Of a stretch of DNA of 27,823 bases, positions 5,668 through 23,789 are shown one piece after another. The stretch is from the IMG/VR virus record IMGVR_UViG_3300033571_002633, positions 1 to 27,823 of that record. One strand, given 5' to 3'. A model generated the notes under the pieces. That model did no database searches. It was given only the letters and a program-made list of their open reading frames with translations, and had not been told where the DNA came from. The stretch comes from a virus. The position numbers and the translations under genes are program-made. The stretch's first letter is position 1; each line of letters starts with the position of its first letter.

Positions 5668-8600
5668 TTATTCGGGGAAGGCGGCCTCAGTGTCGCCTTC
5701 CTCTTCTAAGAACGGATTCCCCTCCTGTTCTTCAACCATAATGTCACGCACGGTATCAATATACGCTTGCCGCTTCAGCTTCCCGACTTGATTTAGCCTC
5801 ATCTGTGGATAAAGCTCTGCCATCATGGCATCTCTCAAGACCTGTGAAGACGGCGGCTTGACCGCCTTTTCCATTTTCCCAGCGTTGATGTCAGCCTCAA
5901 ACTTCAGAGCGATTTCCTCCATCTCTGCTTCTAATTTCTTTTCCAGCTCCGCAGCTTTTGCAGCACTCCCGGCCTCTTGAGCCTTAACAATATCCGCAAG
6001 CATCTTACCCAAGCGTAGCGTATTGTTGCGCTCCGCTGTTCGCGTTGAATCTTTGATTTCTTTTCCAGCCTGCCTCGCTTGCATCTGACGGGCAATATCA
6101 GCCGACTGGAAGCCCGCTGCGCGCTTAAACTGCTCTGAGAAGTCCATTTCCTCAGCTGGTTTGACGAGCGTGCCGTAGCGCGTCCTGACGCCCTCCTGCG
6201 GGTACTGCACGAAGCCCTTAAGAATGTCAGTTGGTGCCTTACCAATGAATGGCGATACAGCGGCCACATAAGCACCAATTGGCTGCACCCCGGAATTACG
6301 ACGATCAAGATATTCTTGGACCTTCAGGACGCTGGTGGAGATTGCCGGGACAATGCTAAGGCCGTCTTCAAACTCAGGAATGATCGATGTGAAGCCGACG
6401 CGCTCACTGATGTTAAGGCCAAGCAATGCACGGGACGGCCCCCGAAGAATTGCTTCAGCATCACGACGAGATTCCGGGTCGCCACCAAACATCTCAGCCA
6501 GCATTCTCTGCGCTTCAGTGCGCATATCCAGCTTGCTTCCGTTCAACTTGTTATAAATATACTGGAAGATATTGATTGCGTCATCGCCAAATGGAATCGC
6601 AAACAACAAGCCGGCCACAGTCCACATCGTCATGATCGTGAACATGCCCGCTACTTTGCCTCGCGGACCCTGTTTGCGTAGATTTTCAGACAGTAAGAAC
6701 ATGACCTGTAGAGGGTATTGAGAAAACTGTAGAACAACCCCGCCGGGGCCGCGCATGATTGGAGGCTTCTCAATCTGGCCGCCCATGAACGTCGCTGTTT
6801 CCACCATGAATTCAGCAACATCAAAAGGATTTGAACCCTTCTCAATAATGATCTTGGCGCGCTCGTTTTCCTTGTAGGCTTCCTTCCAGTTTTTCAAAGC
6901 CTTCGGATCTTGGGCGTAACGATATGCCACAATAAATGCAGCTGCCTTGTTCATCTCTTCAGTTACCGAAATGACGCTGGAGCCGTATTGAAAATAGCGA
7001 TTAAACTTTTGCTTAAGTGCGCCACCGGGGCTTGCCATAACGCCGCTTTCAATTCCCATAAGCTCAGGATTTATTTGAGCCTGAATTGTTCCGCGCTTGT
7101 TTGCAAGAACAAGAGCGTCGCGCTCTTCTTCAGTTAAACCGGGGATCGCATATGGATTTACATGCAGCCCATATCCAACCTCACCACGGAAGCCGGCCAT
7201 GACTTGAGGCACCATTTTGTAAATATCAAGACCTGCTGATCTCTTCATAATCGTCATCTGCGGAGCCGTGATCGTCCATACCGACATGGCGTTCACAGCT
7301 GAAGAAGAGACACTCCCCCACATGGAACCAAAAAAACCAATCGTCCTAAGAGCGCGCAACATGACATGCTCAGGGGTATCGACATACTCGTCCCACTTCT
7401 CAGCATACTCACGCTCCGCCTTGTTCACATTGCGCTTCAAATCTTCAAACGCTGTAGAGTATTCTTGACGATACATCCGGTGCGAAACCGTCGATGCCAC
7501 GATGCGATTGTAATCTAAAAGCCGATCCGTGAAGTTGGTATCATAACCCGGAATGTCGCGAGATTGCCTCATGAAACCTGAGATAAGGTCTTCCATAAGC
7601 ACCGAGCGCACGCTTTTGGGAAGGTCGGTAATCACGCCACGCGCAACCTGCGCCGCGTTCGCCGCGCTCAGACCTCCAATGGTTTCTTGAGAAAACATAC
7701 CCCCCATCGTTCGGTCGAAATAATCCTTAACAATCTTACCGGCATTGGCGTCCATAAGATTCATCAACTTGTCCAAGCTGGAAAGATCATCAATAGAAAG
7801 ACGCTCATTTATGTCAGCAGCGCGACGGCTTACGATAACTTTGTAGCCTTCGCTGGCAGGATATTTTTTCTGAATTTCTGCAATCTTTTTATCAATGCCG
7901 GGATCAGGAATCGCCTTCGCGATCTTAGGGCCAACCAATTCCTTTAGCCACTGCATACTATCCAGCATGAAGAAAGCCCCACTATCGATTGTGCCATCGG
8001 GCCCATAGACCATGATGCGGGTGTCACCTGAGCGCATAAATGGGATGTATGAGGTCAGGCGCTGCGACTCAATGGCGTCAAATAGGCGCAGAAGTTCGTC
8101 GCGGAAATCTCCATCCGCCACTTCTCGCTCTATGCCCTGACGACTATATTCGCCATTGTAGCCAAGAGCGGCCATCTGTGACTTGGCATTTAGAGTATAG
8201 CGCGTGTCCAGATATTCCCGAACTTCATGAAGCATACGGGTTTCATTGGTGTTCAGTTTCAGAGTCTGGCCCGGCTTTGACAGCTCAGGAATAACGCGAC
8301 GCTCAATGCCGTCAGCGCCTTCACGCCGAATCTCACGGGTCTTAATAGCAAAGTTGCGACCAGTGTCACGAACAGCCGTTTTGGACAAACGAAGATATTC
8401 AACAACCGCATTAATCCGATCCTTGGATTCCTGCGGCATATTGTTCAATTCATGCAGCATGTCCTTATAGTCAGCCATAAGGAGATTACGCATTTTAGTT
8501 TTGTCATTCGTCGCTTTGTGCATTCGCGCAAAGAACTTGCTACGCCGGGCAACGGCTGTCGCTGGGCGAGCCCATGATGACTTAAATGAAATATTTTGCA

Positions 8601-8682
8601 CTGGATCTAAAAATACTGGCGGCTCTGGCGGATTTTTCAGCGCAACATCATCTATATCAAGGGAGCAGTTTGCACCTATCAT
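5668..8682 (-). CDS. Very large internal virion / polyvalent-type protein, 1004 aa
   Basis: This is the last gene of the late operon. It begins in a TAATG overlap with the 909-residue protein. It is largely helical, with a basic N-terminal part and two hydrophobic regions: about residues 450-480 (GFFGSMWGSVSSSAVNAMSV) and about 675-700 (FTIMTMWTVAGLLFAIPFG). The charged C-terminal ~170 residues look like coiled coil and end in acids. Size, hydrophobic stretches and position suit either a podoviral ejection protein that crosses the host envelope with the DNA or the terminal part of a phage polyvalent protein. The segment around 640-700 resembles the large polyvalent-associated domains as I remember them, but I cannot confirm this. 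No enzymatic motif was recognised. Its 3' end overlays the terminator hairpin of the opposing operon. Confidence 0.8.
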   Translation of the reverse strand: MIGANCSLDIDDVALKNPPEPPVFLDPVQNISFKSSWARPATAVARRSKFFARMHKATNDKTKMRNLLMADYKDMLHELNNMPQESKDRINAVVEYLRLSKTAVRDTGRNFAIKTREIRREGADGIERRVIPELSKPGQTLKLNTNETRMLHEVREYLDTRYTLNAKSQMAALGYNGEYSRQGIEREVADGDFRDELLRLFDAIESQRLTSYIPFMRSGDTRIMVYGPDGTIDSGAFFMLDSMQWLKELVGPKIAKAIPDPGIDKKIAEIQKKYPASEGYKVIVSRRAADINERLSIDDLSSLDKLMNLMDANAGKIVKDYFDRTMGGMFSQETIGGLSAANAAQVARGVITDLPKSVRSVLMEDLISGFMRQSRDIPGYDTNFTDRLLDYNRIVASTVSHRMYRQEYSTAFEDLKRNVNKAEREYAEKWDEYVDTPEHVMLRALRTIGFFGSMWGSVSSSAVNAMSVWTITAPQMTIMKRSAGLDIYKMVPQVMAGFRGEVGYGLHVNPYAIPGLTEEERDALVLANKRGTIQAQINPELMGIESGVMASPGGALKQKFNRYFQYGSSVISVTEEMNKAAAFIVAYRYAQDPKALKNWKEAYKENERAKIIIEKGSNPFDVAEFMVETATFMGGQIEKPPIMRGPGGVVLQFSQYPLQVMFLLSENLRKQGPRGKVAGMFTIMTMWTVAGLLFAIPFGDDAINIFQYIYNKLNGSKLDMRTEAQRMLAEMFGGDPESRRDAEAILRGPSRALLGLNISERVGFTSIIPEFEDGLSIVPAISTSVLKVQEYLDRRNSGVQPIGAYVAAVSPFIGKAPTDILKGFVQYPQEGVRTRYGTLVKPAEEMDFSEQFKRAAGFQSADIARQMQARQAGKEIKDSTRTAERNNTLRLGKMLADIVKAQEAGSAAKAAELEKKLEAEMEEIALKFEADINAGKMEKAVKPPSSQVLRDAMMAELYPQMRLNQVGKLKRQAYIDTVRDIMVEEQEGNPFLEEEGDTEAAFPE
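5674..5703 (+). terminator. Candidate terminator hairpin of the recombination operon
   Basis: Six bases after the SSB-like stop, a 12-bp stem can form: 5674-5685 pairs with 5692-5703 around a 6-base loop (CTCAGT). In the + strand RNA two of the pairs are G-U; in the - strand RNA those become C-A mismatches, so the full stem favours + strand transcripts. The perfect core is GGAAGGCG/CGCCTTCC. The following tail (TTCTAAG) is only weakly T-rich, so termination may be partial. Confidence 0.55.
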
Positions 8683-20203: not shown

Positions 20204-20551
20204 TCACTTGGACTTGACCGCCTGCCTCCAAGCTTCAACTGTCAGCCTATGGCGAAGGGCGCAATCGCCATACTTGGCAATTATATCCACCTCCCAAATA
20301 GCCCGATCAGGATCAGTTAGTACGGCAGGTGGTGCAGGGAGGGGCGGGCAGTTACTTGCCAGATTCGCTGGAGGCAGCGGCATTGGCGCGATTGATACCG
20401 CTTTCGAGCAGCCCGACAATACGAGGATCAGGAGTGCAGTCAGTAGGGACAGCAGGCAAAGTCTTGTATATCTCGCGGATCGTTTCTCGCTCTCCGGCGA
20501 CCACCACATCGGCTTGATCTCGTGCGGCTTGGTAAATAAAGGAAGCTTCAT
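20204..20551 (-). CDS. Rz1: Outer-membrane spanin lipoprotein (Rz1-like)
   Basis: The protein has a hydrophobic N-terminal segment (LCLLSLLTALLILVLSGC, residues 31-48) ending in a lipobox, with Cys48 as the predicted lipidated residue. A Pro-rich stretch follows (PMPLPPANL, then PPLPAPPAV), typical of o-spanins. It would sit in the outer membrane and pair with the inner-membrane Rz protein to fuse the membranes in the last lysis step. The start at 20551 has AAGGAAAG at proper spacing. The cytosolic N-terminal part before the signal is long (30 residues), so an internal start at Met15 is possible. The first 200 bases overlap the Rz gene in another frame, the classic Rz/Rz1 arrangement. Confidence 0.88.
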   Translation of the reverse strand: MKLPLFTKPHEIKPMWWSPESEKRSARYTRLCLLSLLTALLILVLSGCSKAVSIAPMPLPPANLASNCPPLPAPPAVLTDPDRAIWEVDIIAKYGDCALRHRLTVEAWRQAVKSK

Positions 20552-20711
20552 CTATCTTTCCTTGCATTTGCTGGCGCTGCTTTTCAGCTTTTTCCAGAGC
20601 CTTGGAATAGGCGGAATCGCATTGCCAATCTTTAATTGTCCAGCCAGCGGCAGCGCCAACAACAAGCGCGCCCACCGCCACATAGCCCATGATCGGATTA
20701 AACGGTAGCAT
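20352..20711 (-). CDS. Rz: Inner-membrane spanin (Rz-like)
   Basis: At 119 residues it has one N-terminal membrane span (MGYVAVGALVVGAAAGW, residues 8-24), then a charged helical periplasmic part with coiled-coil character (SAYSKALEKAEKQRQQMQGK, about 33-52), and a flexible end. This is the i-spanin layout. It works with the Rz1 lipoprotein encoded in an overlapping frame to fuse inner and outer membrane after the endolysin has cut the wall. AAGGATG lies upstream of the start, 16 bases after the endolysin stop. Assignment is strengthened by the overlapping lipoprotein gene and by following the endolysin. Confidence 0.88.
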   Translation of the reverse strand: MLPFNPIMGYVAVGALVVGAAAGWTIKDWQCDSAYSKALEKAEKQRQQMQGKIDEASFIYQAARDQADVVVAGERETIREIYKTLPAVPTDCTPDPRIVGLLESGINRANAAASSESGK

Positions 20712-20726
20712 TTTCGAAGCATCCTT

Positions 20727-21347
20727 TCAGGAGAGCCATGACGCGAATCTCTTGGTTTTCATGCGGCGGTCATCGAGGCCGTGCGGGTTCTTGCTGCCAT
20801 TAATCCGGGAGCTTAGTTCATGGATCGCAGCGTCGTTCACGCCCTTATCGCAGATCGACCACAACCTGTTCGTGTCAAAGAACCATAAGGCGCTTTCAAA
20901 ACAGAGTTCCGTCGCAACCAGATCAGGGTTCTTCATCACGTCTGGGCGACCGATATAGTCGGCAAAGGCTTGGTAGTTAGATTTTCCGGTGAGTTGCAAC
21001 GATCCACGTCCACGGAACTTCCAGCCATCCCCAGACGCCTCATCACCGTTGCCCATGCGGTTGGCATAGACGCGGTTAGCAATCCGCTCTGGCTGACGCT
21101 CATAATTTTTAGCCATGCCTTCAGTCGGGAAATACTTACCGAAGATCGTCCGCAACCCCTTCCAGCCGTAGTTCAGGTTTTCTTTGAACGTCTTGAAGTT
21201 GCCGCTTTCGTGCGCTGTTTGAGCAAAGAAATGCGCAGCCCGGTTGGGCGATAGTTTGTAATAGGCCGCCGCCGCCTTGAGTGTTCCCGGCCCAAACGCA
21301 CCATCTGCCGTTACTCCGATTTTCTTTTGCAGTTCAATCAGGCTCAT
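20727..21347 (-). CDS. Endolysin, glycoside hydrolase family 19
   Basis: This is a 206-residue muramidase/chitinase-like lysin of GH19, cutting the peptidoglycan glycan strand. The N-terminal ~32 residues (LQKKIGVTADGAFGPGTLKA) resemble half of a peptidoglycan-binding repeat. The catalytic part follows. The first Glu is Glu47 in AHESGNF and the second is Glu56 in KENLNYG. Then come YANRMGNGDEASGDGWKFRG and GSLQLTGKSNY, all typical of phage GH19 lysins. No signal peptide or membrane span is present, so release depends on the holin. The start forms an ATGA overlap with the holin-like gene, and spanin genes follow. Confidence 0.95.
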   Translation of the reverse strand: MSLIELQKKIGVTADGAFGPGTLKAAAAYYKLSPNRAAHFFAQTAHESGNFKTFKENLNYGWKGLRTIFGKYFPTEGMAKNYERQPERIANRVYANRMGNGDEASGDGWKFRGRGSLQLTGKSNYQAFADYIGRPDVMKNPDLVATELCFESALWFFDTNRLWSICDKGVNDAAIHELSSRINGSKNPHGLDDRRMKTKRFASWLS

Positions 21348-22731: not shown

Positions 22732-23094
22732 CTACCTTAAGTTTCTCAGCTTATAAATTGCAGAAAGATACACACTCGTCAGCGTGTCGATCAGATTTGC
22801 GACCGCCCTATTCCCCTTGCATATCCGCTCATGATTCTTTTCGATCCACTCAGCGTCAGCCTCGAAGCATTTTAGTGGATCTTTCTGCATTTCCTCTAAG
22901 GCTGGGATGTTGCCGATTAGATCATAGGCCCCTTGATACGCTTCAACCAGAGGGTCAATTGCATCAATGACAGCATCATAAAACTCTCCCAGTGCCATGT
23001 GCTTAGAAAAGCTACCTTCACCCTTGGCGCGCCAGTGCGAAAAGTGAGCGAGGTTGCGTGCATAAAAGACGCGAGAGATGAGTTGCTCGATCAT
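22732..23094 (-). CDS. Dps/ferritin-like helical protein, 120 aa
   Basis: The protein is entirely helical. Near the N-terminus it carries AHFSHWRAKG with His20-Trp21, then His32, then Asp47 and Glu51. The spacings (12, 15 and 4 residues) equal those of the Dps ferroxidase site: His51, His63, Asp78, Glu82 in E. coli Dps. The Trp after the first His is also conserved there. Dps proteins form dodecamers that oxidise and store iron and shield DNA. The fifth ligand, Asp67 of E. coli, is replaced by Gly36, with Glu37 next to it. The protein is shorter than Dps (about 160 residues) and lacks the basic DNA-binding tail. It may belong to an uncharacterised phage family (I recall DUF5856, unconfirmed). 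It begins in a TAATG overlap with the fibre-like gene. Confidence 0.6.
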   Translation of the reverse strand: MIEQLISRVFYARNLAHFSHWRAKGEGSFSKHMALGEFYDAVIDAIDPLVEAYQGAYDLIGNIPALEEMQKDPLKCFEADAEWIEKNHERICKGNRAVANLIDTLTSVYLSAIYKLRNLR

Positions 23095-23789
23095 TACGCG
23101 ATCCGCATCACAGGACAGATAATTGATGGAATAGCTGGGGGGATTGCGCCGGCTGCTGTGGCTTCAATTGTTACAGCTACGTTTTCAGGCAGCCACATAA
23201 TTTCAATGTACTGGCCTGCCGTAACAGTGTCAAAAAACGTCAAGCTAAACACGGTAGCGCCACCATCCGATAACTTTGGAACTGTGATAATCGTGGCTGA
23301 GTTGGGAATATTGGTTCCATTCTTGCGGAACCAGACAGTTGCGTCGTGGTCAGCACCGGAAGAGTTTACAAACTGAATACTTGGCGCAAACATGTACGTG
23401 CCAGCGGCAGTAATCGTAATTTGAGTGTTGGAAACCACATTGATACCAGTGCCTGTTAAATCAGTGTTGAATGTAACAGCTGTTGCGGCAGAGATGCTTC
23501 CAGTCTGATCGACCGTACTTAATGGCTCTCCAAAAGCCCGCCCAGCTAAGTCCGCAAAGGGGATTGTCGCAGCGGCTGTCATCGGCGATGTTCCACTACC
23601 CTTCACGTAGCCTGTAAGTGTAGCTGCCCCTGTTCCGCCATTAGCTACACCCAGTGTGCCGCTGAACGTGTCTGCAATAGAGGCCGCAGTCGCCTTTGCG
23701 CTAGCACCGGACTGAACAATCTCAAGAAGCTCGTTACCGGATAGCGGCAGTGTAGCAGCTGTAAGGTCTGTGATCTTTTTGTTTGCCAT
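23094..23789 (-). CDS. Short fibre / appendage protein with jelly-roll-like C-terminus
   Basis: The N-terminal part (MANKKITDLTAATLPLSGNE, then LGVANGGTGAATLTGYVKG) is the linker type of podoviral tail fibres and shares GGTGA with the 703-residue fibre. The C-terminal ~130 residues form a strand-rich domain: ITITAAGTYMFAPSIQFVN, ATVWFRKNGTNIP and TVTAGQYIEIMWLPEN. This is the strand order and phrasing of C1q/TNF-like jelly rolls that trimerise at the tips of virion appendages. It is likely a receptor-binding or decoration protein. It is coupled by TAATG at both ends, with the zinc protein upstream and the Dps-like gene downstream. Confidence 0.75.
   Translation of the reverse strand: MANKKITDLTAATLPLSGNELLEIVQSGASAKATAASIADTFSGTLGVANGGTGAATLTGYVKGSGTSPMTAAATIPFADLAGRAFGEPLSTVDQTGSISAATAVTFNTDLTGTGINVVSNTQITITAAGTYMFAPSIQFVNSSGADHDATVWFRKNGTNIPNSATIITVPKLSDGGATVFSLTFFDTVTAGQYIEIMWLPENVAVTIEATAAGAIPPAIPSIICPVMRIA

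Follow-up and report, generated by a model that had tools for sequence, protein, structure and literature searches.

A minus-strand open reading frame of 120 codons with an ATG start (22732-23094), in a viral sequence record whose full 27,823 bases are here called the window, raises the question of whether a tailed phage encodes a mini-ferritin of the Dps type. The initial annotation of this DNA had pointed to positions 22942-23037, exactly codons 20-51 of the gene, as carrying His20-Trp21, His32, Asp47 and Glu51 with the spacing of the Dps ferroxidase site, and every residue that it named, including Gly36 and Glu37, is indeed present in the 120-residue product. We suggest that the product is probably a minimal Dps-like, metal-binding mini-ferritin, expressed late, and a putative ferroxidase. 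The original mini-ferritin reading is borne out in its predicted fold and metal residues, but not in its exact spacing as a general feature or in the proposed substitution by Glu37.

The plus strand of the window carries replication and recombination genes (primase, helicase, resolvase, RecE-like and RecT-like), and the minus strand carries structural, ejection, tail and lysis genes. The gene of interest lies among the structural, tail and lysis genes, in agreement with the late-gene setting originally assigned to it (Table 1), and is followed on its 3' side by three small genes, the endolysin and the two overlapping spanin genes. The one-base overlap at its start suggests, from the sequence, translational coupling with the upstream tail-fibre-like gene, which accompanies it in 72 of 80 close relatives. 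The closest non-identical relatives of the protein reach up to 88% identity, and in comparisons with twelve of them synonymous divergence is at or near saturation (pS 0.70-0.95), with nonsynonymous differences of 7-16%. The Caulobacter phages GB2A and RW each have a homologue that is about 50% identical. The late block closes with a 1004-residue open reading frame (window 5668-8682, minus strand) that has no match in PHROGs.

Table 1. Features of the Dps-like gene and its neighbours in the window.
Feature	Position	Strand	Basis
Dps-like DUF5856 / PHROG 858 protein, 120 aa, ~13.7 kDa, pI 5.8	22732..23094	-	Pfam, PHROG, AF2, PDB fold matches
Helix A, residues 2-21, with His17 and His20; first half of putative metal site	23032..23091	-	DSSP on model
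A-B loop, residues 25-28, Gly-Glu-Gly-Ser	23011..23022	-	GEG insert missing from 135/190 homologues
Helix B, residues 28-56, with His32, Tyr39, Asp47, Glu51 and Gly55; Gly at position 36	22927..23013	-	DSSP, invariant columns, profile alignment
Helix D, residues 96-118; Tyr114 and Leu116 invariant	22741..22809	-	DSSP on model, invariant columns
TAATG junction, upstream stop codon sharing one base with ATG	23092..23096	-	sequence
231-aa protein upstream, weakly tail-fibre-like	23094..23789	-	PHROG 33320, E 4e-4
Endolysin downstream, same late gene block	20727..21347	-	PHROG 181, E 3.5e-59
Spanin-like gene pair, overlapping, different frames, Rz/Rz1-type, downstream of endolysin	20204-20711	-	

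The family to which the window protein now adds a member was already known under uninformative or misleading names. It matches the Pfam model DUF5856 (PF19174) with 53.3 bits (curated cut-off 34.6, E 5.9e-14) and PHROG 858 at E 6.4e-14, and both models are matched by all 82 aligned members. PHROG 858 is labelled 'starvation-inducible transcriptional regulator', the name that RefSeq also gives to Ackermannviridae homologues, and the link of the family to Dps is already present in these PHROGs and RefSeq labels and in one publication that deals with a homologue from Kuttervirus. The label also appears for a protein in a 2024 paper on algal viruses, the prasinoviruses (PMC11408933). Our literature search found no biochemistry for any DUF5856 / PHROG 858 member, and the passages searched in the YerA41 and EspM4VN papers contain nothing on the family. 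Among bacteria, 4 of the 385 genomes scanned from a single class had a protein reaching the DUF5856 cut-off, and when bacterial genomes were scanned for the window subfamily, three metagenome-assembled contigs were the only matches. Tests of the five related viral records and of three MAGs detected no canonical ferritin or Dps.

Homologues were collected from viral contigs and annotated phages, giving 190 distinct sequences, or 34 representatives after thinning at 70% identity. His20, His32, Tyr39, Asp47, Glu51, Gly55, Tyr114 and Leu116 are invariant in all 190, so that the conservation of the four proposed ligands was confirmed, and His17 is present in each homologue row aligned there. Some of the viral-contig scans were seeded on peptides containing His32 and others on peptides containing Asp47 and Glu51, and hence could not miss their own seed residues; His20 is absent from every viral-contig seed, each scan leaves the remaining residues free, and the phage matches from unseeded tblastn, where aligned, likewise retain His20, His32, Asp47 and Glu51. 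The pattern HW-x10-H-x14-D-x3-E does not occur in 14,454 unrelated open reading frames (1.8 million residues), and H-x11-H-x14-D-x3-E occurs once in the same set. A chance resemblance to the Dps motif was rejected on the invariance of the residues in homologues and the absence of the HW pattern from unrelated frames.

The spacing itself, originally described as exactly that of Dps (12, 15 and 4), is general only in its last two values. The distances of 15 (His32-Asp47) and 4 (Asp47-Glu51) are constant throughout the homologues, but that between His20 and His32 is 9 in 135 of the 190, 13 in one, and 12 in the 54 that make up the window subfamily, where it results from a three-residue GEG insert in the A-B loop. 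Trp21 does not hold as part of the signature either, being replaced mostly by Leu and sometimes by Phe outside the window subfamily. The absence of the fifth ligand, already recognised at Gly36, extends to the entire family: position 36 is Gly, Gln, Arg or Asn in 190 of 190 and never acidic. The neighbouring Glu37 is no general stand-in, as it is not conserved and Lys is commoner than Glu at this position. A distant family in small alphaproteobacterial genomes (L317-L320) keeps the His, His, Asp and Glu with a spacing of 9 and lacks His17 and Tyr39.

The AlphaFold2 monomer model, built from an 82-sequence alignment, is a four-helix bundle (pLDDT 96.3, pTM 0.88). When this model was compared with the PDB by Foldseek, the best 50 matches listed were all Dps (two rows being a Dps-bacterioferritin chimera), and the Dps matches listed had TMq values of 0.67-0.80, relative to query length, and a probability of 1.00; E < 0.001 was reached by none among the matches listed. 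A homologue from Kuttervirus with the spacing of 9, predicted separately (pLDDT 92.4), again matched Dps. Judged by these models, the window protein almost certainly has a Dps-like fold, as had been anticipated when a ferritin-like bundle was proposed. In a search of viral predicted structures, there also appeared to be matches between Dps-like domains and segments of far larger phage proteins, which carry the names prohead protease, ParB/Sulfiredoxin or NUDIX hydrolase.

Profile comparisons point in the same direction. The family profile found the Dps-family protein NapA in the PDB at E 4e-4, and the DUF5856 model picks up one bacterial Dps at E 5e-4. Alignment by hhalign with 31 proteobacterial Dps proteins gave a probability of 90% over 40 ungapped columns and places His20, His32, Tyr39, Asp47 and Glu51 onto conserved Dps columns, while a global profile alignment brings the Tyr114/Leu116 region near the conserved Dps Trp-Met-Leu. 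At the fifth-ligand position, 29 of the 31 Dps proteins in the hhalign set have an acidic residue. Of the HMM searches that had been suggested as a check, against DUF5856 and the ferritin-like clan, the first gave a match; for the second, the window protein alone scored 12.1 bits against the ferritin domain PF00210 (cut-off 24.5, E 0.19), the best family member had E 0.0062, again with a score short of the cut-off, and NCBIfam Dps models gave single proteins only sub-threshold scores. As these single-protein scores are sub-threshold, the Dps link rests on the profile, fold and residue evidence. In bacterial genomes PF00210 matches were mostly not of the Dps type, the Dps motif being found at 1 of 30 loci.

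If the family labels were taken literally, the product would be a DNA-binding or regulatory protein, since PHROG 858, PHROG 3636 and the RefSeq product names call it a 'starvation-inducible transcriptional regulator' or 'DNA binding protein'. These names, however, look as if they were inherited from Dps naming, and domain searches of the protein detected no DNA-binding domain. Helices fill residues 2-118 of the 120, leaving neither an N- nor a C-terminal basic tail, which agrees with the original remark that the basic tail of Dps is lacking, and all 34 representatives are acidic (pI 4.6-6.5). The model of the window protein also has no helix of at least 4 residues between residues 57 and 72, where a BC helix would lie, and the BC helix is likewise missing from the model of the Kuttervirus homologue. 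We therefore regard a DNA-binding or regulatory role as highly improbable; DNA binding or coating is unlikely for a family that is acidic, tail-less and without the BC helix.

In known Dps proteins the ferroxidase site sits between two subunits, one of which supplies the two His and its neighbour the acidic ligands. With both half-sites invariant, the protein is predicted to pair about a two-fold axis and to hold metal at the interface, where the two His of one chain would meet the Asp and Glu of its partner. That His20, His32, Asp47 and Glu51 form a metal site is very likely, and such an interface site would bind Fe2+ or a similar metal. Supplied with an oxidant such as H2O2 (or oxygen), the site could oxidise Fe2+ and so withdraw iron from Fenton chemistry, which would spare the dying host, or the DNA and particles of the phage, some oxidative damage. 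Being acidic and without basic tails, the protein would handle metal rather than coat DNA. We consider ferroxidation or iron detoxification its reasonably probable main activity. Without the fifth ligand, the second metal site may be weaker or altered, and a Dps-type assembly is not assured on the models, as these lack the BC helix, which in Dps is near the two-fold axis; a 12-mer cage like that of Dps is conceivable but somewhat doubtful.

The same departures from Dps (the missing fifth ligand, the shortened loop and the absent BC helix), together with the extra invariant His17 beside His20, could mean that the ferritin-like fold now serves another activity, with a Mn, Zn or mixed-metal site, as a peroxidase or in binding a host enzyme, and that storage and the cage have been lost. 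The four best-known Dps ligands nevertheless stay in register, and they are also kept by the more distant relatives in cellular genomes, from which His17 and Tyr39 are missing, so we judge this unlikely. Equally unlikely in our view is that the protein is primarily a virion component near the portal, head or tail, as a metal carrier or structural accessory with a structural metal and no ferroxidation. An extreme version of this idea is the published 'Ferrojan horse', in which phage iron is used for entry. Gene order speaks for a virion component. In a neighbour survey of 98 loci (thinned at 90% identity), a portal gene lies upstream in 36, nearly always directly adjoining, and in 24 of these 36 it overlaps the DUF5856 gene by the four bases ATGA; an example portal gene that was scanned matches PHROG 156 at E 1e-118. 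Tail genes adjoin the DUF5856 gene in the window, and terminase, scaffold, tail and lysis genes are further neighbours among the loci. The portal pairing, at L299:707-3001 and 35 other loci, spans diverged phages. Against a virion component, the gene sits near a DNA primase gene in Ackermannviridae, and the family occurs in widely differing particle types.

Direct data on particles come from the Salmonella phage Sajous1, whose gp217 is a DUF5856 protein, judging from its position and from a match of 95% identity with the protein of Det7. Mass spectrometry of CsCl-purified Sajous1 virions yielded 10 spectra of gp217, beside 196 of gp214, but 924 of the major capsid protein, and the authors caution that low spectral counts may be contamination (PMC10892097). 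They predicted gp217 to be a ferritin or ferritin-like protein and proposed iron-assisted entry, yet Salmonella tonB and feoB mutants, deficient in TonB and FeoB, were infected about as well as the wild type (PMC10892097). Several Salmonella phage records also label the homologue a structural protein. Particle association of a DUF5856 protein is thus possible, with a published precedent in Sajous1. For the mini-ferritin that we favour, part or all of the protein may be incorporated into the particle or attached to it, given its co-location with genes for portal, tail and lysis and the detection of one homologue in purified virions; we nonetheless think it rather unlikely that the window protein is associated with the virion of its own phage.

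In Pfam this family still has no assigned function, and elsewhere it goes by the name of a transcriptional regulator, which the present evidence does not support. The ferritin prediction for one member, Sajous1 gp217, is already published, and the interest of the finding lies in a widespread putative phage metal protein with a defined site. Ligands that never vary in hundreds of viral genomes, and a gene often coupled to that of the portal, predict a metal-binding, probably iron-oxidising and possibly particle-borne protein, a prediction that bears on whether phages handle the iron and peroxide of their hosts or are iron carriers themselves. A bolder proposal is that in a very widespread family of phages a minimal mini-ferritin is a standard component of the particle or its portal, translated together with the portal protein and using a variant Dps ferroxidase site of four ligands. 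This strikes us as improbable; if it were true, phage particles would carry enzymatically loaded iron.

Compared with known systems, the window subfamily differs from most members of DUF5856 / PHROG 858 in having the GEG insert and Trp21. A described relative, gp217 of the Salmonella Kuttervirus Sajous1 (PMC10892097), belongs to the same family and has the same metal residues, but shares only about 30% identity with the window protein, has the spacing of 9 and lies among other neighbour genes. The 'Gratiaviridae' gut phages have DPS and manganese-catalase enzymes that are likewise phage-encoded and proposed to act against oxidative stress (PMC8008677). These DPS enzymes are described there as rare in gut phages (PMC8008677). 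From the Dps family proper (E. coli Dps, Listeria Dps and H. pylori NapA), with 150-170 residues, the window protein is set apart by its length of about 120, and DUF5856 by the loss of the fifth carboxylate ligand (Asp67 in E. coli) from all 190 homologues, by models without a BC helix or basic tails, by acidic representatives and by a spacing of 9 in most members. The window protein is like Dps in its fold, in the His/His/Asp/Glu set, in the Tyr at H+7 and in the end of the last helix.
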